A DNA stretch of 21,068 nt. It comes from a virus. The notes beneath the pieces were generated by a model. That model did no database searches. It saw nothing but the letters and a program-made list of their open reading frames with translations, and was not told the origin of the DNA. Both the position numbers and the translations under genes were made by a program. The stretch's first letter is position 1, and every line of letters starts with the position of its first letter. Below are positions 259-19,833 of the stretch, one piece after another. The stretch is from IMG/VR virus record IMGVR_UViG_3300020392_000744, positions 1-21,068 of that record; one strand, written 5' to 3'.

Positions 259-263
259 GGAGG
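259..263 (+). promoter_or_regulatory. Ribosome binding site of the P450 gene
   Basis: GGAGG four bases before the ATG at 268. It fixes the start and shows the P450 has its own strong phage-style translation signal rather than relying on coupling to gp4. Confidence 0.7.
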
Positions 264-267
264 TAAC

Positions 268-1662
268 ATGAGCAATCAACCAATGTGGACAGACGAAGAT
301 GAAAAGAGAATGGATATCATCGGAAGTAATGGCAATGACGGCGAACACTATGCGGAACTGGAAGAAAGAGAATCCGCAGCCGCAGCAGGATTTGCCAGAG
401 CAGGATCAGAACAAGATGCATTCAAGGGCGAAATTCCTTCTGCGTATGATGTTCCATTAGAAACACTCAATCCAGTATGGAATAGACTCTTCGAAGAAAA
501 TAAAAGTCTTGAAATGTTTAAAAGACTTAGAGAGGAAGATCCAGTACACTTTAACGAGACAGATGTTGCAGGAAGATTCTGGTCACTGACAAAATATGAC
601 GATATCAAAAAAGTTGATATGAACCATCAAGAGTTTTCTTCTGAGCCAATGATAACAATCGGGTATCCTGTCGGGACTCCACGCCCAGAAGGTTCTCTAG
701 ATATCTCTTTGTTTATTGCAATGGATCCACCCAAACACGATCTTCAACGACGAACAGTTGCTCCAGTAGTTTCTATGAGAAGTATGATGGGATTAGAACC
801 CCTGATACGAGAAAGGACTGGTGCAGTTTTAGATTCTCTCCCAGAGAATGAAACATTTAACTGGGTAGACAAAGTTTCTATTGAACTTACCACACAAATG
901 CTCGCAACTCTCTTTGACTTTCCATTTGAAGAACGCAGAAAGTTAACAAGATGGTCTGACGTTGCGACTGCAGTGCCCGGCGCAGGGATTATTGACAGCG
1001 AACAACAAAGAATTGACGAATTGGTAGAATGTCTACAATATTTTACCGAAGTCTGGGAAATGAGAAAGAAAGAACCTACAAATGACTTCGTTTCTATGAT
1101 GGTCAAAGGAGAACATACAAAAGATATGGAGCCAATGGAGTTTCTGGGTAATCTTATTCTGCTGATTGTGGGAGGAAATGATACTACAAGAAATTCCATG
1201 TCTGCTGGTGTTCATGCCCTCAACCAGTTTCCGTCAGAATACGAAAAACTCAAAGGAGATCTAGGATTGATACCGAATATGGTATCAGAAATTATTAGAT
1301 GGCAAACTCCCCTCGCGTATATGAGAAGAACCGCAAATGATGACTGTGTTATCGGAAATAAAGAAATCAAAAAACATGACCAGATTCTTATGTGGTATGT
1401 TTCCGGAAATCGTGACGAAGAAGTTTTCCCTAATGGAGAAGATCTAATCATTGATAGAGAGAATGCTCGTAATCATTTATCATTTGGTTTTGGAATCCAT
1501 CGTTGTATGGGAAATAGAACCGCAGAACTACAACTCAAGATTCTTTGGGAAGAAATAATGAAAAGATTTGATCGAATAGAGGTTGTAGGTGAAGAGAAAC
1601 GCACATTCTCATCATTTGTCAGAGGTTATACTGAACTTCCTGTGAAAGTTTATCGAAAATAA
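268..1662 (+). CDS. Cytochrome P450, CYP153-like
   Basis: A full-length 464-residue soluble bacterial P450. Hallmarks: C-helix HDxxR-type segment (H157 to R161), I-helix GGNDTTRN (302-309) with the oxygen-activating Asp-Thr-Thr, K-helix ExxR (E341-R344), and the haem loop FGFGIHRCMG (406-415) with Cys413 as thiolate ligand. Long stretches match my memory of the CYP153 family, for example IELTTQMLATLFDFP (205-219), RKLTRWSDVATA and VSEIIRWQTPLA. Known CYP153 enzymes hydroxylate the terminal carbon of alkanes and fatty acids and need a ferredoxin and ferredoxin reductase; neither is in this window. Length agrees with the family (about 420-470 residues). A GGAGG lies 4 nt before the ATG. It sits between gp4 (13 nt upstream) and a structural gene (13 nt downstream), all on one strand, so late expression is expected. 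Substrate and activity are inferred. Confidence 0.95.
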   Translation: MSNQPMWTDEDEKRMDIIGSNGNDGEHYAELEERESAAAAGFARAGSEQDAFKGEIPSAYDVPLETLNPVWNRLFEENKSLEMFKRLREEDPVHFNETDVAGRFWSLTKYDDIKKVDMNHQEFSSEPMITIGYPVGTPRPEGSLDISLFIAMDPPKHDLQRRTVAPVVSMRSMMGLEPLIRERTGAVLDSLPENETFNWVDKVSIELTTQMLATLFDFPFEERRKLTRWSDVATAVPGAGIIDSEQQRIDELVECLQYFTEVWEMRKKEPTNDFVSMMVKGEHTKDMEPMEFLGNLILLIVGGNDTTRNSMSAGVHALNQFPSEYEKLKGDLGLIPNMVSEIIRWQTPLAYMRRTANDDCVIGNKEIKKHDQILMWYVSGNRDEEVFPNGEDLIIDRENARNHLSFGFGIHRCMGNRTAELQLKILWEEIMKRFDRIEVVGEEKRTFSSFVRGYTELPVKVYRK

Positions 1663-3033: not shown

Positions 3034-3765
3034 ATGGCTCTACCTAAGTTAGATACGCCAACTTATAATCTTACAATTCCGTCAACCAAGAAAAAAATAA
3101 AGTTTAGACCTTTTTTGGTTAAGGAAGAAAAGATTCTATTGATGGCTAACGAAGGAGACGATGTTGAAGAACAAGTAGATGCAGCAAAACAAATTATTGC
3201 AAACTGCATCATTACCAAAGGCGTAAAGATTGAAAGTCTTGCGACATTTGACATAGAGTATTTGTTTGTCAACATTCGTAGTAAGTCTGTAGGAAACATC
3301 GTACAGTTAAATTATAAACATGACTGTCCAGCTGGTTCTGAAGACGGATCAACTACTGAGAAAGATGTTAGATTTGATATCAATCTTGATAATGTTGAAA
3401 TCGAAAATAATGAGGATCATACAAATAGAATTGATTTAACAGATACTATTGGTGTGATAATGAAGTATCCAGATTTTAAAATTCTTAAGGGTGTTCAAAA
3501 TCTGAATACATTTGAAGATACAATGAAAATGTTAAAAAATTGTATCGAATATATCTATGATGGCGACGAAGTTTACGATATTGCGGATTCGAATGATGAA
3601 GAAGTATCGGATTTTTTAGAATCTTTGTCGCAAATGCAGTTTCAGAAGATAAATACTTTTTTTGAGACTATGCCTCAGTGTGTAACTGATGCAGTTGTGA
3701 AATGTCCTGATTGTGGATGGACAAATACCTTTAAACTACGAGGAATCACCGATTTTTTCGTATAG
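3034..3765 (+). CDS. 26: Baseplate hub / tail assembly protein gp26
   Basis: 243 residues of the gp26 family (T4-type baseplate hub subunit). Recognised from the N-terminal LPKLDTPTYNLTIPSTKKKIKFRPFLVKEEK pattern (read in two parts), the FDIEYLFVNIRSKSVG segment and the C-terminal CPDCGW Cys pair (about residues 224-229). In T4 gp26 is needed for hub assembly. It has a good ribosome site (AGGAG, 8 nt before ATG). The last codons contain a T TTT TTC slippery heptamer (3753-3759); slipping back one base would extend the protein by 58 residues through the gp51 frame. This two-product arrangement is like tail-tube chaperone pairs (lambda G/GT), and suggests gp26 and gp51 act together around the tape measure protein encoded just downstream. 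Confidence 0.85.
   Translation: MALPKLDTPTYNLTIPSTKKKIKFRPFLVKEEKILLMANEGDDVEEQVDAAKQIIANCIITKGVKIESLATFDIEYLFVNIRSKSVGNIVQLNYKHDCPAGSEDGSTTEKDVRFDINLDNVEIENNEDHTNRIDLTDTIGVIMKYPDFKILKGVQNLNTFEDTMKMLKNCIEYIYDGDEVYDIADSNDEEVSDFLESLSQMQFQKINTFFETMPQCVTDAVVKCPDCGWTNTFKLRGITDFFV
3740..3759 (+). promoter_or_regulatory. Putative -1 ribosomal frameshift site linking gp26 to gp51
   Basis: The zero-frame codons GAT TTT TTC GTA TAG contain the canonical slippery heptamer T TTT TTC (3753-3759), two codons before the gp26 stop. A Shine-Dalgarno-like GAGGA (3740-3744) lies 8 nt upstream, a spacing like that of the stimulator in dnaX. After slipping, the frame reads Arg-Ile-Gly-Leu-Tyr and continues without a stop to 3935, through the conserved gp51 motif. 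I do not see a clear downstream stem-loop. The site is read from sequence; frameshifting itself is inferred. Confidence 0.65.
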
Positions 3766-3944: not shown

Positions 3945-4265
3945 ATGGCGACAGAAAAACCTTTAACAAAAAAAGTTAAAATAGATCTAGAAATTGACAC
4001 AGATACAGTCAACAGCGGAAGTAATCCATACAAAAAAATGATTCATCTTGCGGCCGCGATTGATGCTTGGAGAATTTTTCCAAGATTATTCTTATCTGTA
4101 TACATATTCTTATTATACAAAACAGTTCTTTGGTATATGGATCTTCCAGCACCATCTATGGAACAATCCGGTCTTATCTCAGTAATCGTTGGGGCAGGTG
4201 CTGCATGGTTTGGTCTTTATGCTGGAACAAGTAAATCAAATAAGTCTTTTAACGGCGACAAATAA
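3945..4265 (+). CDS. Small membrane protein with two predicted TM segments
   Basis: 106 residues. A polar N-terminus of about 45 residues is followed by two hydrophobic segments, roughly 46-66 (LFLSVYIFLLYKTVLWYM) and 75-98 (LISVIVGAGAAWFGLYAG). Two closely spaced TM helices and a charged tail resemble holins, and proteins of this type stand next to tail genes in marine T4-like phages, but no lysis gene adjoins it and a structural role is equally possible. AGGAA lies about 8 nt before the ATG. Its TAA overlaps the next ATG by one base, so the large tail protein downstream is translationally coupled to it. Confidence 0.6.
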   Translation: MATEKPLTKKVKIDLEIDTDTVNSGSNPYKKMIHLAAAIDAWRIFPRLFLSVYIFLLYKTVLWYMDLPAPSMEQSGLISVIVGAGAAWFGLYAGTSKSNKSFNGDK

Positions 4266-6436
4266 TGGCTGAAGCAAGTCTAGACTCAGTAATAGATAAA
4301 TTAGAATCCGTAAATATGGACTATCGGGGGTTGTCTGAGAGTCTAGACAGTGCTAGTGGCGCATTAGAATCTAATACTGCGAATGAAGCGTTACGTCAAG
4401 TATCCGATTTGATATCAAAACAAGGAGATATGGAAGCGAAAGAACGCAGGGCCAGTAGAAAAGAAATGGCGAATATCGCAAAGTTGATCGAAGACTCCAA
4501 AGAAGTCGGCGATTCTGACAAACAAAGATTTCAGTCACTAATCCAAATGCACGATCAAAGAGTCAAATCAGATTCTTCTTTAATGAATGATGTGGGATCA
4601 AAAATAACAGAGACTCTCACCGAAGGAGTAACAAATATAAGTGCAGTTGTTGCTGGAGTGGTGTCTGATAGTCCTATCCTTGCACTGGGAGTTAAATTCT
4701 TGGGCGATAGTGTAAGAAAGGGTGTAGTTGCGTTCAGAAATTTCAGAAAGAAAAAACGAGAAGAAAAAACTATCAGAGAAAAACAAAGAGAACTCTTTAG
4801 AGAACAAGAAAGAATTGATTCCGAAGAAAGAAGAATTCTAAGAGAACAGATTTCAGAATCTGATGTCCAAAATAAATTAAATCTCTCCGAAGAAGATATA
4901 CAAAAGAAAGCGGAAGAGGCTAACAAAACTAGAGAACAGATCTTTAACGAAGAAAGAGACAGAATTATAGAACAGTCTAGGATTGCGAAAGAACAGAGAG
5001 ATAACGCACAGGCAGAACAAACAAGAATACAAGAATTAAGAGATCGTGTTGGTTTGGATATAGAACCCACAGATCAAGAAAGAGTTTCTCCCACAGAATC
5101 TGGTTCAGATTCTCCAGAAATAAATCAAATTACTGGAGAGGTTGGAGAAAGAATAGAATCAAGTTTAGTCTCTAGAGTAACAGAGGGGGGCGATAACGAT
5201 ACTACTACTTCAACAACCACGATAAGAGAAACTGGGTCAGATTCTTCTGAGAGTGTTCCTGTCAGTTCACCTTTCTTACAAGAAATCAGAGATCTACTAG
5301 AATTTTTGAGTTCTCAACAATCTCAAGGAGAACTTGATGCGATTGAATCCGAAAGAGAAAAGAGACGATCTGATCAAGCAAATCTGAGAGTAGAAAGAAA
5401 TCAAAGTTCTCTTCTAGAAGATTCTATAGAAACCGCAGAAGGGGCAAGAGAAGAAAATAAAGGAGTATTTGAATCTATTGCTGGAGGTTTGGGAATGTTC
5501 AAGGGAGTTCTAAGATTCTTGACAACTATTCCCAAAGTTCTTGGAATGTTATTCAGTCCAATTGCGTTAAAAATAATGGCAGTGGGTGCTGGAATTGCAG
5601 CTGCCGTTGCGTTTATAACTTCAGATCTCCCACAAAAGATCGGAGAGTTCGTTGCCGCGCTGCCAGAAAAAATAAGTTCTGCTATTTCTGGATTCTTCGA
5701 TTCTTTCGTATCATTTATTAGAGGAATGTTGTCTAAAATTCCGGGCATCGGAAGATTCTTTAAAGATGATGAAGAAGAATCTAATGATACTTCGACAACC
5801 ACTCCAGATGATTCAAATAGTAGAGGAAGCATCTTTGATAGGTTCTTTGGTAGGTCATCTACAGGTTCTAATCCAAATATAACTAACGCAAACCAAGAAA
5901 CAAATATTGACGAATCCGTGACAACTTCGCCTCCGCCCGATGCGTTGCGGTCGGCCGAACCAAGAGAAAATGTAGTTGTTCTTGACGAAAGAAGAAGATC
6001 TAGGAGAGAGAGAAGAGGTATACTCGGACTAGAGTCTCCTAATATAGAATCTGCAGAAAATGAAAATGTATCAGTCATACCCACAGAACTCGCTCAGGGA
6101 ACACAGAGTCCTTCTCAGGAAGTTGCAGTCAGAGAGGGTGTAGTTATCCCTGCTGGAGAATCTGTACCTCTAGAACAGGTTTCTGGTGCGCCTACGCAAG
6201 AGCTTGGAAATATATCATCTCCTATGGCTGGAGTAAGAAGTTCTGCTGCGAATGTTATGAAAGAGAGTGCGATAGAGAAGAGTGCATCGACCAATATCAG
6301 TCCTATACTCAACAATCTATCAAATGTAACTAACAATAACGTATCAAATTCAAGCAGTACTGTAATCCCAACAAAGGCATACAATACTGAAGATAGTTTC
6401 AACAAAATAAACTCAGCACTATCCGGTGCAGTATAA
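4265..6436 (+). CDS. Tape-measure-like tail protein (gp29 position)
   Basis: 723 residues, not recognised by motif but with the architecture of a tail length/tape measure protein. Residues 1-130 are helical; 150-260 form a strongly charged Arg/Glu coiled coil; 270-340 is a Ser/Thr-rich linker; 400-500 is a hydrophobic, Gly/Ala-rich block (GMLFSPIALKIMAVGAGIAAAVAF and neighbours) of the kind that such proteins insert into the cell membrane on infection; the remainder is disordered and rich in Ser, Asn and Glu. It directly follows gp26-gp51 and a small membrane protein, consistent with a chaperone-then-tape-measure order. It is longer than T4 gp29 (590 residues). A membrane-interacting hub protein is the alternative. 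Confidence 0.55.
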   Translation: MAEASLDSVIDKLESVNMDYRGLSESLDSASGALESNTANEALRQVSDLISKQGDMEAKERRASRKEMANIAKLIEDSKEVGDSDKQRFQSLIQMHDQRVKSDSSLMNDVGSKITETLTEGVTNISAVVAGVVSDSPILALGVKFLGDSVRKGVVAFRNFRKKKREEKTIREKQRELFREQERIDSEERRILREQISESDVQNKLNLSEEDIQKKAEEANKTREQIFNEERDRIIEQSRIAKEQRDNAQAEQTRIQELRDRVGLDIEPTDQERVSPTESGSDSPEINQITGEVGERIESSLVSRVTEGGDNDTTTSTTTIRETGSDSSESVPVSSPFLQEIRDLLEFLSSQQSQGELDAIESEREKRRSDQANLRVERNQSSLLEDSIETAEGAREENKGVFESIAGGLGMFKGVLRFLTTIPKVLGMLFSPIALKIMAVGAGIAAAVAFITSDLPQKIGEFVAALPEKISSAISGFFDSFVSFIRGMLSKIPGIGRFFKDDEEESNDTSTTTPDDSNSRGSIFDRFFGRSSTGSNPNITNANQETNIDESVTTSPPPDALRSAEPRENVVVLDERRRSRRERRGILGLESPNIESAENENVSVIPTELAQGTQSPSQEVAVREGVVIPAGESVPLEQVSGAPTQELGNISSPMAGVRSSAANVMKESAIEKSASTNISPILNNLSNVTNNNVSNSSSTVIPTKAYNTEDSFNKINSALSGAV

Positions 6437-7901: not shown

Positions 7902-9239
7902 TTAAGTTTCGTTTTCATCCTTCAGAGTTTCGTTGAGTTCCCTTCGACGTTTCTCTGTTCTATCAAGTCTCTGCCATCCGCCAGAGGTTTTCATTAACAC
8001 ATTTTCTGCATCATCAAAATTTGGAATATCTACTGGGCCTTCTGATGCTAGTTTTGCGTTCTTAACCGCAACCAGATTCATGTTTGCAGCAATCAATAGA
8101 AGCACCGCAAGGGGATCGAATACAAATACAATGAGAAGTATGATCCATTTTACTGCATTCTCTAATTCTTCTTCTGAAGCGTTATTCCCTGTTACAAGTT
8201 CTGCGATATACTTAATCGGCCCGACTTCTGCTTCCAGTTGTCGGTAACTTGTTTCTAAATCGAACTTCTCTAAGTTAAGATCGTCCAGTTTGTCTTCTAG
8301 GGTATCTATAATATTTCTTTGTTCTGCAACCAACTCTAGTTTATTGTCGTTCACAGGCGTTCCCAGTTGCGCTCTAAGACGTTGTATAAGAGCATTGGAG
8401 TCAGTTATCTCCTGACGCACAGTTTTTCTTATATCCGCAATCTGATCCATTGCGGAGTCTATATTCTGGTTGTCTTTGTTTCTTATTTCGTCAATCTTTA
8501 CTAGAAGTTTGTCTCTTTCTTCTAATTGTTGGGCCCTAAAGTAATCGACTTTAGACGCAGTTTCTTCTCCGTAAGAACCATCGACAATAGTACCGACAAT
8601 TCTTTGGATTATTCTTACGTTGTTTTCTTGTATAGCAGTATCAAGTTGATCCATACGAGAATCAATATTTGCAATCTCATCTCTGTAAGGTTTGACTCTA
8701 TTCTCGACAATCTCATTCTCTCTTTCGATGATACCCATCTGAGATTTTATCTGAGGATCCGCACGTTCATATGCGGTATCTATTCGTTGTTGTTCTCTAT
8801 CTATCTGGCCCTGTATCCCATCAGAGAAATCTATATCCGCACTTTCCAGATCTTGTATCTTTGCTTCTGCGGCATCAATAAGATAGTCTGTCCGTTGGAT
8901 TTCTTCCTCTACTCTGAGTATCTTAGATTGATTCTCTTGGTTTCCCAGAGTCTGTTCTATATGTGCAGACGATAAGAACCCAAAAATACCCATAGAGGTT
9001 ATGAACATCAAGACCACTACCGCACTTACAAAATATGTTTTGAGTAGTAGTGGACAAGTTTTCCAGTTTCGATATAACCAAGATGCGGTTACGAGTTTTC
9101 CGACCTCAAGAACCACACCCATAATGATAATTGGAAGAACAGCTGCAGAAAATATCTTTGCCAATCCAAATATAGAATAATATGCGGCGACTCCACTAAT
9201 TGCTAGTGCCGACATAAGTGTAATTATTGCTAGTTGCAT
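7902..9239 (-). CDS. Coiled-coil membrane protein between gp59 and gp32
   Basis: 445 residues. Three hydrophobic regions near the N-terminus (about 1-25, 30-55 and 68-92) and one near the C-terminus (about 365-393, WIILLIVFVFDPLAVLLLIAANM) flank a 260-residue Glu/Gln/Asp-rich coiled coil (about 95-355). The shape is that of a membrane-anchored rod with both ends in the membrane. I recall large membrane proteins of this layout in marine T4-like genomes but know no function. It is not between genes 59 and 32 in T4 itself. AGAGAAG precedes the ATG, and the gene starts 2 nt after the gp59 stop, so it is co-transcribed with gp33 and gp59. A role in anchoring replication at the membrane or in host takeover would be speculation. 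Confidence 0.7.
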   Translation of the reverse strand: MQLAIITLMSALAISGVAAYYSIFGLAKIFSAAVLPIIIMGVVLEVGKLVTASWLYRNWKTCPLLLKTYFVSAVVVLMFITSMGIFGFLSSAHIEQTLGNQENQSKILRVEEEIQRTDYLIDAAEAKIQDLESADIDFSDGIQGQIDREQQRIDTAYERADPQIKSQMGIIERENEIVENRVKPYRDEIANIDSRMDQLDTAIQENNVRIIQRIVGTIVDGSYGEETASKVDYFRAQQLEERDKLLVKIDEIRNKDNQNIDSAMDQIADIRKTVRQEITDSNALIQRLRAQLGTPVNDNKLELVAEQRNIIDTLEDKLDDLNLEKFDLETSYRQLEAEVGPIKYIAELVTGNNASEEELENAVKWIILLIVFVFDPLAVLLLIAANMNLVAVKNAKLASEGPVDIPNFDDAENVLMKTSGGWQRLDRTEKRRRELNETLKDENET

Positions 9240-10175: not shown

Positions 10176-10718
10176 CTATCGGTAGAATATATGAGTACCA
10201 ATCTTAGTGGTATAAACCAACTTAGAATGGAACTTAGATTGAACATAGTCTGCGTGATACCACAACGCTCCACCAGTAGGATCGCTATGTCGTTCCGAAC
10301 CGTACTCAACAGTAACCATTGCGGCTACACTGACTGCACGATTCCATGCAACCAAGTCGAGTATCTTATCGGATTTACCATCGCAGTACCAAGAAAATTG
10401 ACATCTGTCTTTCACAGGGATGAATATAGCATCATTTGGATCTTTGGTTGCCCTAGTTTTCCACGATTCCTTGTATTCTCCCTGCCTAACAACATCGCAT
10501 ATTGTATTAGGATGCTTCTTTGCAAAAACACGATTAAGAGTTACATATGCGACAGCGATTTGCCCCATAATACTCTCATTTCTTGCCTCAAAGTATACAT
10601 TCTCTGCGAGGCATCGAACTTCTTCTTCTATCAAGGCATTCTTTTCGGTAATACTAGTGGTTACTTTGCTGGGAGTGAGTGTTCCCAGCGCAGCAACGAG
10701 CAGAAGCATAAATTTCAT
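10176..10718 (-). CDS. Secreted cell wall hydrolase, SleB / Hydrolase_2 family
   Basis: 180 residues from the ATG at 10718 (AGGA 9 nt upstream); the frame extends two codons to a TTG, less likely. Residues 1-20 (MKFMLLLVAALG...) are a signal peptide or signal-arrest segment. The catalytic domain begins at CLAENVYFEARNES and contains GQIAVAYVTLNRV, CQFSWYCDG, AVSVAA and ALWYHADYV, the conserved order of SleB-type lytic enzymes, with the Glu of the EARNE region as the likely catalytic residue. It would cleave peptidoglycan in the periplasm after Sec export. It heads an operon with gp33 and gp59 behind a perfect sigma70 promoter, an unusual place for a lysis enzyme. Confidence 0.88.
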   Translation of the reverse strand: MKFMLLLVAALGTLTPSKVTTSITEKNALIEEEVRCLAENVYFEARNESIMGQIAVAYVTLNRVFAKKHPNTICDVVRQGEYKESWKTRATKDPNDAIFIPVKDRCQFSWYCDGKSDKILDLVAWNRAVSVAAMVTVEYGSERHSDPTGGALWYHADYVQSKFHSKLVYTTKIGTHIFYR

Positions 10719-10753
10719 ATACAACTTTCCTGTGCTATGTTAATAACCCTTTA

Positions 10754-13487: not shown

Positions 13488-14282
13488 CTATGCAATATTA
13501 TCATAATAATCCGATATGTTATGGTCTTTGACCAATGACAGTAACGGTATTTTGGAAAAGATCGATCCTACCATGAGTTTAAATCTAATCCAATCAAAAT
13601 TTATTAAAGACTTTGTAGTGTACACTATTTTTTTCTTCTTGTCTACCACTTTAATGTCTCCTATGTGCCTATAGAACAACATAGGCAACGGAACGGCAGG
13701 AACTATATCGGCTCCTTGTACATGGCGGTAGATGGTTGATTTTACATTCTTTGCGTACTTTTTACTTCCAACTCTAGGTTGGCCATAAGTATACACTTGA
13801 CAAAGGTACTTCGATCTAGCAGCAGCAACAGTTGCGAGAGCGCCTCCCAAACTGTGACCGCAAATGTAGACCAAATCTCCAGACGCATGGATTGAGTCCA
13901 GATAAAGTTCTACATCATCCCAAATTTTATCAAGGGCTTCTGCGAAACCACTATGAACAATCCCTTGTCGTTCTTCGGATTTCTTTGGGATGATATTGAT
14001 ATCAGCTAAGATGTCTTTGAGTTCTGTTGGTTCAGTTCCGCGAAAAGCAAGAACAATACAAGTTCCGGTCTTTACTACGAGTGCTTCTGTACCATCGTTA
14101 TCAAAAGTTTTGAAATGTGATTTGGTGTAACTCGACAAGGCATTTTCTAGGAAATGCTTGTTATCGGTTTTATACACTAACACCGAAAAGAGTGCTAGTT
14201 GTTTAGCGACAGATGTAGAGTACTCACCTGTCTTTTCGATAGTTTTATATTTTTCGAATTCTGTTTTTAAGTCCAGTTCCAT
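13488..14282 (-). CDS. Class 3 lipase-like alpha/beta hydrolase
   Basis: 264 residues of the Lipase_3 family. The order is VLAFRGTEPTELKDILADI (about 77-95), GIVHSGFAEALDKIWDD, nucleophile elbow CGHSLGGALA (Ser144), YTYGQPRVGSKKYA, ADIVPAVP (Asp192) and FYRHIGD (His206). The Ser-Asp-His triad is complete, so an active acyl ester hydrolase is likely; substrates of the family include triacylglycerols and phospholipids. No signal peptide is seen, so action in the cytosol or on the inner membrane is expected. A TATAAATA late promoter lies upstream (14307-14314), and the start overlaps the deformylase C-terminus by 38 nt. A role in host lipid release or membrane weakening is inferred. Confidence 0.87.
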   Translation of the reverse strand: MELDLKTEFEKYKTIEKTGEYSTSVAKQLALFSVLVYKTDNKHFLENALSSYTKSHFKTFDNDGTEALVVKTGTCIVLAFRGTEPTELKDILADINIIPKKSEERQGIVHSGFAEALDKIWDDVELYLDSIHASGDLVYICGHSLGGALATVAAARSKYLCQVYTYGQPRVGSKKYAKNVKSTIYRHVQGADIVPAVPLPMLFYRHIGDIKVVDKKKKIVYTTKSLINFDWIRFKLMVGSIFSKIPLLSLVKDHNISDYYDNIA

Positions 14283-15545: not shown

Positions 15546-15755
15546 TCACTCCAAAGGATCACCGACTATGGGATTGAGTAAATTTTCTTTCTTGTCATAT
15601 ACACTAAGACGGCCATGAGCAAGACCATAAGTAAACTTATTTGTGATTATATGCATTCCAGTATAATCTTTAATCTTCTCCTTTCCATCTGACTCAATTT
15701 GTTTTATCAACTGAGTTAATGTATTCCAATTTTTTTCTGCGTACTCAAGACCCAT
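15546..15755 (-). CDS. Hypothetical protein
   Basis: 69 residues, soluble, no recognised motif (contains MHIITNKFTYGLAHGRLSVYD). Its start overlaps the 3' end of the cupin gene by 11 nt, so it is translated in a coupled manner. The upstream ribosome signal is weak (GAGCGAG). No family known to me. Confidence 0.6.
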   Translation of the reverse strand: MGLEYAEKNWNTLTQLIKQIESDGKEKIKDYTGMHIITNKFTYGLAHGRLSVYDKKENLLNPIVGDPLE

Positions 15756-16170
15756 TTGTTGCTCGCTCTGTTAAATATTTTTTGTAGTCCACCCATCCCT
15801 TGTTGGTATTAAACCCCCAAGTTCTAGTTTTCTTTGTTCTCATAAAGAGACTCAATGCATAAGAACCTTCTGGAATTTCTATCCAATGCAAACTTTCTGC
15901 TTTGGAAAATCTCCAGTGACCCGGCCCTCTCCAGAATTTACCTTCTGGTGTATGTTCCCAGTATCCGCCCCAGAGAATAAATGTGAAGTAATCCCAAGGA
16001 TGATCGTGAAGAACTGGTTCGTCTGATAACATAATCTTGTGGAGATATATGTTGAATTTGAGATCTCTACTTTGGCTGAGAGTATCGATCTTATCCTTTA
16101 TCAATTGCCATCGGATCATATAGGGACGTTTATCATCCCTATCCATTATAATTCTTTTCCGTCCAAACAT
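15745..16170 (-). CDS. Cupin-like protein
   Basis: 141 residues. The segment LHDHPWDYFTFILWGGYWEH (about 55-74) has the HxH-type metal-binding start and Gly turn of a small cupin-type beta barrel, and a later LHWIEIPEGSYALSLF segment fits the second cupin motif. This family occurs in marine phages with no established role; a dioxygenase or sugar-modifying function would be a guess. Its ATG overlaps the TAA of the glycine-zipper gene (TAATG), so the two are coupled. Confidence 0.65.
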   Translation of the reverse strand: MFGRKRIIMDRDDKRPYMIRWQLIKDKIDTLSQSRDLKFNIYLHKIMLSDEPVLHDHPWDYFTFILWGGYWEHTPEGKFWRGPGHWRFSKAESLHWIEIPEGSYALSLFMRTKKTRTWGFNTNKGWVDYKKYLTERATNGS

Positions 16171-18792: not shown

Positions 18793-19245
18793 CTACATTA
18801 ATTCAAAATGGGGGGCATCAATGAACGGCCTTCTACCCTGAGAACGTCTCGTATCGATGTAAGAGTTCATCGCATCTTCCATAGTTCCGTCCCAATCTCT
18901 AATGTCGCTGATAGTCCATGCAGCACCCCAGCGAACAGCGACTCCAACTTTCTCCGCACCAATTTTTACTGCATCTGCGATTTCGTCATAGACATTGAGT
19001 TCCCAACTTCCGCGACTACCGATATAAGCCATAAGATCGACTGCGCGGCCTTCTAGGTGTTTGGACTTCATTGTTTGTGATGCTCCAGCAGCAACCAGTT
19101 CTTCTTGTTTCTGAATAGAACGGACACCTTCGATGACTCCGAAATCAATCTTGGTTTCTTCGATTGCGTATTTGACTACTTGGACTAAATCCGGATCAAC
19201 TCCGTCTAGTCTCTTTAATGATCTTGATGATAATCTAAATCCCAT
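18793..19245 (-). CDS. Endolysin, M15 peptidase family
   Basis: 150 residues. GVRSIQKQEEL, then SKHLEGRAVDL (S61 to L71, zinc ligands His63 and Asp70) and DAPHFEL (third ligand His146) form the M15/VanY-type (L-alanyl-D-glutamate peptidase-like) zinc site. It cuts peptide cross-links of peptidoglycan at lysis. No signal peptide, so release needs a holin, not identified here. A perfect late promoter (19270-19277) and AGAGG ribosome site precede it. It adds a second wall-degrading enzyme to the SleB-type one. Confidence 0.92.
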   Translation of the reverse strand: MGFRLSSRSLKRLDGVDPDLVQVVKYAIEETKIDFGVIEGVRSIQKQEELVAAGASQTMKSKHLEGRAVDLMAYIGSRGSWELNVYDEIADAVKIGAEKVGVAVRWGAAWTISDIRDWDGTMEDAMNSYIDTRRSQGRRPFIDAPHFELM

Positions 19246-19281: not shown

Positions 19282-19833
19282 TTAGTTTCCACCACCGCTA
19301 CCGCCGAACCCACCGCCAACAGCACCGTCTTCTACTTCTATAAGGTACTGAATAGTTTTCGATGTAGTTGCATTAGTATCATTATGTTTAATTGTCAAAA
19401 AGAGATTTCCAGCAACTGCTCCAGAGTTTCCGGTCTGCAACGTGTACAAAACATTGGATGATAACGCTTGATACGAACCGAATGATCCAGAGGCATTTGC
19501 CTGTCCGGAATGAGTTGCTCTTACTGAATAATCATCACCAACAGAAGAACTTCCACCAGTTGCCCAACTAGAACTGGTTGGAGATAGACTTGCTTGTCCA
19601 GCGGTACTGGAGAATGTAATTGATCCATTTGTGTTGATCGAAACAGTAACCGTAAATTGACTATTAGAGTTCTGCAATAAGTTGACTGTTCCACCAACGA
19701 TAGTTTCTGATGGTGTTAATGGCCATACTTCGGTATTGATCCCATTTGCGTCTGTATAGAATACTTTATTTACCACTTGGTTATTGTAGTAAACATTAGT
19801 AGGTACACTGCCGTTATAGTGAAACTTAGTCAT
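19282..19833 (-). CDS. Tail-fibre-associated / virion protein with Gly-rich end
   Basis: 183 residues, poor in charge, rich in Ser, Thr, Asn and Gly, with a beta-sandwich-like repeat pattern (NSNSQFTVTVSINTNGSITFSS, split here) and the terminus VGGGFGGSGGGN. Such composition and the Gly-rich tip resemble marine phage fibre tips and adhesins. Its start overlaps the stop of the long fibre gene (TAATG), with no own ribosome signal, so the two are made in linked amounts. Role as receptor-binding tip or fibre accessory is inferred. Confidence 0.6.
   Translation of the reverse strand: MTKFHYNGSVPTNVYYNNQVVNKVFYTDANGINTEVWPLTPSETIVGGTVNLLQNSNSQFTVTVSINTNGSITFSSTAGQASLSPTSSSWATGGSSSVGDDYSVRATHSGQANASGSFGSYQALSSNVLYTLQTGNSGAVAGNLFLTIKHNDTNATTSKTIQYLIEVEDGAVGGGFGGSGGGN

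Follow-up and report, generated by a model that had tools for sequence, protein, structure and literature searches.

Cytochromes P450 of the CYP153 family carry out terminal hydroxylation of alkanes and fatty acids, receiving electrons through a ferredoxin and a ferredoxin reductase. CYP153 is among the genes of aerobic alkane degradation, and cyanobacteria make C15 and C17 alkanes (PMC10176705). Phages are known to carry metabolic genes for photosynthesis, nutrients and methane. P450s have also been described in phages; CYP102L1 of Mycobacterium phage Adler is said to have been acquired from the bacterial host. Earlier work on viral P450s reported no redox partner in viral genomes, and a 2022 paper found that a phage flavodoxin can drive a bacterial P450 (PMC11814380, PMC9405906). 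A second relevant system is found in large freshwater phages: they carry pmoC, which encodes a single component of a bacterial hydrocarbon monooxygenase, without the partner subunits. In those phages, which are related to cyanophages, pmoC is co-expressed with structural genes and its product has divergent termini (PMC7674155).

The DNA analysed here (the window) is a virus record of 21,068 bases. At 268-1662 (+) it holds a single uninterrupted reading frame of 464 codons with an ATG start, preceded by a directly read GGAGG ribosome-binding site at 259-263 (+), 4 nt before the ATG. The only Pfam match of the 464-aa product is p450 (PF00067, E 2.8e-21), and no PHROG matched it. When the PDB was searched, the top 13 distinct sequences gave E values of 2e-146 to 2e-104; the titles of 11 name CYP153, P450-153 or P450pyr, those of the remaining two (9uy0 and 9vfd) just "Cytochrome P450", and the next family, CYP125, followed at 2e-61. 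P450 families are named by a rule of more than 40% identity to members. This criterion is satisfied for CYP153 by the three nearest bacterial genes (75-76%) and by the structures (51-57%).

The catalytic motifs are all in place on the plus strand, as seen by direct reading and by alignment: the I-helix motif GGNDTTR (residues 302-308, positions 1171-1191), ExxR in the form EIIR (residues 341-344, 1288-1299) and the haem ligand Cys413 in FGFGIHRC (1504-1506). The key residues of these motifs do not vary across 32 aligned sequences. The CYP153 catalytic core, as delimited by the PDB search and Foldseek, spans residues 56-464 (433-1659, +), and a retained bacterial CYP153 N-terminal stretch, GFARAGSEQD..G, lies just ahead of it (residues 41-55, 388-432, +). 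An AlphaFold2 model of the protein (pLDDT 84.6, pTM 0.84) was submitted to Foldseek. The first 28 rows were CYP153 structures, with target TM up to 0.93, and the first 18 showed 51-57% identity to CYP153A structures. In the Marinobacter aquaeolei enzyme, 17 positions that we take to line the substrate pocket were mapped, and 15 of them are identical in the phage protein, including G307, L354 and V456; the two differences are V141, which is Ile146 in the phage protein, and T302, which is Ile297. PDB titles among the Foldseek matches name mutants at L354 and V456. Sequence, fold model and tree thus agree that the phage gene is an intact CYP153-family P450. The preliminary description, made from the sequence alone, had proposed closeness to CYP153 and intact motifs (Cys413, ExxR, GGNDTTR), and both claims held. 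Among the results that it had named as counting against it are a structure model lacking the P450 fold and, for the substrate, a phylogeny away from CYP153, and neither of these was obtained. Enzymatic activity and substrate are inferred from the family; the activity is untested.

The P450 gene lies between two T4-type genes on the same strand, with a gap of 13 nt on either side (254/268 and 1662/1676). Upstream is a gp4-type head closure protein with a TnsA-like nuclease fold (3-254, +; phrog_218 head closure, E 7e-28; PF08722, E 7e-17), its 5' end cut by the window edge. Downstream follow a gp2-type DNA end protector (1676-2272, +; phrog_429, E 6e-54), a tail tube protein (2275-2994, +; phrog_45, E 4e-35) and a gp26-type baseplate hub protein (3034-3765, +; PF12322, E 1e-64), whose best phage matches are annotated as baseplate hub, some as gp26. 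T4-type gp2, gp4, gp26, gp32 and gp59 genes were all recognised in the window by Pfam and PHROG. For gp32, the first-listed matches are cyanophages at 57-59% identity, and 37 of 2,419 records fall at 60-80%. The P450-carrying phages are T4-like, and they are probably marine, as we take their samples to be from the sample codes. The T4-like structural setting, the gaps, the gene's own GGAGG and its flanking by gp4 and a structural gene had been described correctly before; the structural gene is gp2.

A protein-based scan of IMG/VR recovered nine further contigs with the P450, 87-97% identical and from eight sample codes (two contigs share one code; one, L011, is cut inside the gene), and two further IMG/VR scans gave the identical nine. 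One record, G003, has 200,733 bases with identical 218-base ends, as expected for a complete genome of about 200.5 kb. Each of the 33 window ORFs tried has a match in both G003 and another large record, G001, although one of them (19282-19833) is matched over just 20-23% of its length. The gene order recurs as well, which answers the earlier suggestion to look for homologues at the same place: gp2 comes immediately after the P450 in 8/8 contigs not cut inside the gene, and directly before it is gp4 in 6/9 and a hydroxylase gene in 3/9. Because the gene recurs in nine further contigs, one of them with identical ends, it is not an assembly chimera. By tblastn at E 1e-5, no relative was detected in 50,697 phage records, a result that bears on CYP153-like P450s only. 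The earlier statement that P450s are very rare in phages is supported by it for CYP153-like P450s; for other phage P450s precedents exist.

The same junction was compared over 80 gp2 loci, kept out of 105 relatives. The P450 adjoins gp2 in eight, all with gp2 at least 92.9% identical, and gp4 and gp2 are adjacent (3-138 nt apart) in 70; one of the remaining loci has a 639-nt gap and in the other gp4 was not found. In the nearest P450-free relatives, L283 and L322 (gp2 identity 79.7% and 78.5%), 32 nt separate gp4 from gp2. Nearly all P450-free relatives seen have gp4 beside gp2, so the P450 was inserted here in one phage lineage only.

The inserted gene is maintained. Among nine phage P450 genes, dN/dS lies between 0.033 and 0.100 in 33 of 36 pairs, the other three pairs being identical (L003, L004 and L010); the comparison represents seven distinct genes and its pairs are not independent. 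Synonymous divergence (dS) reaches 0.81. The GC content of the gene (39.9%) is close to that of the window (38.3%); in the loci around the three nearest bacterial genes it is 46-55%. These results show that the gene is adapted to the phage and kept under purifying selection. Taken with the tree and the empty-site comparison, dN/dS satisfies the criterion for an auxiliary metabolic gene, namely a host-derived metabolic gene under selection in a phage genome; an effect on host metabolism remains an inference. The earlier view that the gene is fixed in the genome is supported by the nine further contigs, the low dN/dS and the empty gp4-gp2 site.

A genome scan for bacterial relatives, limited to the best 80 loci, placed three gammaproteobacterial CYP153 genes at the top (L181, L182 and L183, 75-76% identity). 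L183, from OM182 bacterium MED-G155, is the sole one of the three titled OM182. The tree had 65 rows, took in 49 of the 80 bacterial loci and had no outgroup from another P450 family. Its seven phage rows form one clade (support 100/100) within the group that holds L181, L182 and L183 (100/99), next to L181 (96/85); another OM182 record, L194, falls outside. The donor was likely a gammaproteobacterium near OM182. The present host is inferred to be a gammaproteobacterium too, without host data, and the donor need not be the host. A long branch (0.27 changes per site) leads to the phage genes, and a shift in substrate is therefore possible.

A second phage CYP153 was found at L267:7956-9206 and also in L268, both of which we take to be freshwater from their sample codes. 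It has 416 aa, is 57% identical and lacks the N-terminal peptide described below. Five of nine neighbouring proteins tried match PHROGs, one being a phage ATP-dependent protease (E 9e-233). In the tree its nearest neighbour is an alphaproteobacterial gene, with moderate support (90/81), apart from the first clade. Since this second gene sits in another phage and elsewhere in the tree, capture apparently took place at least twice, which suggests that the function was acquired more than once.

The first ~32 residues of the window's P450 were missed in the preliminary description: they belong to a distinct phage peptide and not to the P450. The module covers residues 1-32 (268-363, +), was recognised by an HMM and is absent from bacterial homologues; its core, RMDIIGSNGNDGEHY, covers residues 14-28 (307-351, +). 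The consensus is RMDIIG(Q/S)NGNxGxHY, or more broadly R[MI][DN][IV]IG(Q/S)NGNxGxHY. With pLDDT below 50 for residues 1-41, the N-terminal part is modelled at low confidence and is probably disordered. In an alignment scan, 20 contigs besides the nine P450 contigs matched only within residues 1-52, and in these the stretch is borne by very different proteins. A pattern scan for IGQNGNxG gave at least 120 stretches. The 79 that were checked all encode this peptide within an open frame, and 64 satisfy a strict pattern. Among 78 such segments (75 distinct), positions outside the searched letters are also conserved, with R at -4 in 78/78, Y at +10 in 78/78 and H at +9 in 74/78. Conservation as DNA was rejected, as synonymous codons vary and residues stay constant; the peptide is conserved at the protein level.

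Its carriers are diverse. The 163 tags in 162 phage loci correspond to 143 distinct proteins, which blastp at E 1e-4 sorts into 60 groups once the tag is masked, one of them the P450; the loci are partial, and short proteins may have been split too finely. They include ribonucleotide reductase, DUF3310, MazG, RecA, a 5'-3' exonuclease, a DnaA-type helix-turn-helix protein, an apparently multi-spanning protein and many proteins without a named function, and the peptide may lie at either end or inside. An HMM was built from 123 tag segments not derived from P450s and run on 25,995 six-frame segments from a set in which the 80 bacterial CYP153 loci were all represented, together with nine P450-free phage loci and L267. 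It matched only the P450 of the window (E 1.2e-12), G001 and G003, within 1.2e-12 to 1.6e-12, and the next best value was 0.32. The peptide was not found in 72,556 plasmids at E up to 1, nor as an exact pattern in any of 299 genomes of the phylum of record G010. It occurs in 22 of 50,697 phage records, at one place each, some of these being duplicate entries. Cultured phages that have a tag include Vibrio phage 1.021.A and Pseudomonas phage PspYZU01. A looser pattern applied to 35 whole records gave exactly one match in 10 and none in 25; the latter are 20 P450-free gp2 relatives, L267, L268 and three records whose tag is a GAAY variant, which falls outside the pattern. Use of the tag several times per genome was not seen. 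The only locus of the 162 with two tagged proteins is L145 (5262-5567 and 5911-6171, both on the minus strand), with the tag at residue 12 in both. Presence of the tag first in P450-free relatives, followed by movement onto the P450, was not seen either (0/20 records, several of them fragments).

Comparison with the bacterial genes bears on how the tag was acquired. Seven of the eight bacterial CYP153 N-termini shown start with MSEA, and none of the three nearest genes has the RMDIIGSNGNDGEHY peptide. L182 and L183 carry RPGSEQD ahead of the core (YVRPGSEQD and FIRPGSEQD; L181 has FERPGAEMD), and the phage protein retains RAGSEQD with the peptide in front. As the peptide is absent from bacterial relatives and RAGSEQD is retained behind it, the simplest reading is a gain in the phage after capture. 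A PDB search with the tag gave no match, and a text search for IGQNGN found no occurrence in the open-access literature searched. The peptide is likely a binding or localisation signal, a role that is inferred and untested. A bolder reading, on which we find the case evenly balanced, is that it is an undescribed, phage-wide portable peptide, present in single copy and mounted on any protein at hand as a ligand for one conserved target, which could be a factor of the host or machinery that the phages share; the P450 would then simply join its other carriers, and the peptide would direct it to a particular site in the infected cell.

The position of the gene bears on its expression. Over both strands, G003 has 42 copies of the box TATAAATA, which we take to be a T4-type late promoter by consensus. 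In a simple ATG-based list of 137 ORFs of at least 120 aa, 21 have the box on the coding strand in the 80 nt before them, and two have it in the reverse orientation. In L005 and L008 a copy precedes gp4 by 43 nt, and all the P450 contigs that hold this region (8/8; L007 and the window are cut) have one at the corresponding position. A possible weak late-promoter-like box, CATAAATA, was read directly just before gp2 (1664-1671, +) and is also present 12 nt before gp2 in G003. It is likely that TATAAATA drives gp4, the P450 and gp2 as a late promoter. This timing is inferred from the box and gene order without transcripts, and on the same grounds the suggested expression with virion genes is supported as probable. 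Rfam and tRNA scans of the window gave no match.

The source of electrons was addressed by searching the phage records. The 2Fe-2S ferredoxin family (Fer2, PF00111) was not found in any of nine P450 records or in any of ten records of a second, overlapping set, and neither Pyr_redox_2 nor Flavodoxin_1 was found in the six records tried. Four plasmid-borne CYP153 redox partners gave no tblastn match at E below 1 in G003, G001, L010 or the window. The search covered three families only and several records are fragments; G003 is apparently complete. The window's M15-type endolysin gene (18793-19245, -; best PHROG match endolysin, 7e-50; Pfam Peptidase_M15) also matches a PHROG labelled ferredoxin (E 1.8e-11), which is likely a label error or a shared domain. 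A phage-encoded partner from Fer2, Pyr_redox_2 or Flavodoxin_1 was thus not found in the phage records searched, and host redox partners are implied by this absence. Besides the endolysin, the window has a second cell-wall hydrolase, of SleB type (10176-10724, -).

In three contigs a fatty-acid hydroxylase gene lies directly upstream of the P450. In L008 it codes for 323 aa between gp4 and the P450 (9028-9999; PF04116, E 9e-24); it is whole in L011 (2665-3633) and partial in the contig of L007 (L057:3-473), at 97-98% identity. No such gene lies between gp4 and the P450 in L003-L006, L009, L010 or the window, and none was found in the large records G001, G003 and G008. Joint capture of hydroxylase and P450 as a bacterial operon was not supported by locus comparison: by tblastn at E 1e-3 the hydroxylase had no match close to any of the 80 bacterial CYP153 loci apart from one of 29% in L221, many flanks being short. 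Matches in eight related genomes are 25-37% identical, except for one short 45% stretch.

Other genes of the window deserve mention. A class 3 lipase (13488-14282, -; PF01764, E 8e-24), 96-97% conserved in G003 and G001, overlaps a peptide deformylase gene, and a cysteine dioxygenase-like protein is encoded at 15745-16170 (-; phrog_4786, E 1e-35; no Pfam match). Between gp32 and gp59 lies a gene for a 445-aa protein (7902-9239, -) with a sub-threshold SMODS (nucleotidyltransferase) match (E 8e-4) and no PHROG match, 91-96% conserved in relatives. A 723-aa protein (4265-6436, +) matches tape-measure proteins only weakly, and a search of 50,697 phage records yielded no relative; it is 63-67% identical between P450 phages, in which the other genes there are mostly above 85%.

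Our main reading, to which we assign a probability of about 0.6, is that the gene is a functional auxiliary CYP153 terminal hydroxylase that sustains fatty-acid or alkane oxidation late in infection. A gammaproteobacterial CYP153 near OM182 would have been captured into the gp4-gp2 junction of one T4-like phage lineage and would have gained the phage peptide at its N-terminus thereafter, probably as a binding or localisation signal. The P450 would be transcribed with the head-completion genes late in infection, take electrons from the host's own ferredoxin and ferredoxin reductase, and hydroxylate the ends of fatty acids or of C15-C17 alkanes. Oxidation of hydrocarbons or fatty acids by the host, and hence energy and precursors, would in this way be sustained during virion assembly. 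The benefit is inferred, there being no activity data. The same holds for the earlier proposal of altered hydrocarbon or fatty-acid metabolism or membrane lipids, which rests on the family only.

The main rival, which remains possible, is that the P450 inactivates or modifies some signal, toxin or membrane lipid of the host, as when hydroxylation of fatty acids would change the envelope ahead of lysis, and does not serve catabolism. A lipid role draws support from the hydroxylase upstream of the P450 in three contigs and from the conserved lipase, and these two genes favour lipids over free alkanes as the substrate. Against it, neither the window nor six other P450 contigs have the hydroxylase at the junction, the three large records lack it too, and there are no lipid data. 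We regard as unlikely the view that the P450 serves chiefly as a carrier or a structural component, with the peptide or a virion role selected and catalysis secondary. The same peptide on ~60 dissimilar protein groups, in one copy per whole record where found, and the location of the gene among virion genes speak for such a role, but all catalytic residues are retained, dN/dS is low across the gene, and the peptide is missing from the second phage CYP153 (L267).

Far less probable still is a neutral passenger recently acquired from the host. The single-gene insertion with its clean empty site speaks for it, but dS up to 0.81 with dN/dS of no more than 0.10 and a GC content resembling the window rather than the bacterial loci argue against it. 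Assembly chimerism or host contamination can be all but excluded: no supporting evidence was found, and the constant gp2 neighbour, gp4 directly before the gene in six of nine contigs and a P450 record with 218-base identical ends oppose it. The reading as an auxiliary hydroxylase is the one preferred. If true, CYP153 in T4-like phages would link viruses to the turnover of fatty acids and cyanobacterial alkanes. The peptide is potentially the more general finding, as a 15-residue module across unrelated phage proteins that might represent a novel type of feature; that it was added to a captured enzyme could illustrate the way in which phages modify the host genes they take up.

How, then, does this locus compare with the systems described? 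With the CYP153A hydroxylases of Polaromonas (7ant/7ao7) and Marinobacter aquaeolei (5fyf/5fyg) and with CYP153A7 (3rwl) it shares family, fold, catalytic motifs and G307/L354/V456, but it is phage-encoded, has the N-terminal peptide, and has no redox partner of the searched families in the phage. CYP102L1 of phage Adler belongs to another P450 family, phage type and host, and no such peptide is mentioned in the relevant sections of those reports. CypX of an uncultured Caudovirales phage (A0A6J5NCR8, BFVD) likewise has a P450 fold in a tailed-phage record, at 25% identity. Phage P450s are already known; no report of a CYP153 in a phage was found in the open-access articles searched, most subscription journals being outside the scope. 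A parallel in role is pmoC, likewise a phage copy of a bacterial hydrocarbon-oxidation component and a precedent for an auxiliary function (PMC7674155). That gene codes for a subunit of a copper membrane enzyme for methane, whereas here a P450 with an added peptide is found; and for late co-expression as in the pmoC phages, the P450 phages offer a promoter box and gene order, without transcripts. By analogy with what has been proposed for the pmoC phages (PMC7674155), the phage CYP153 may support host oxidation during assembly.
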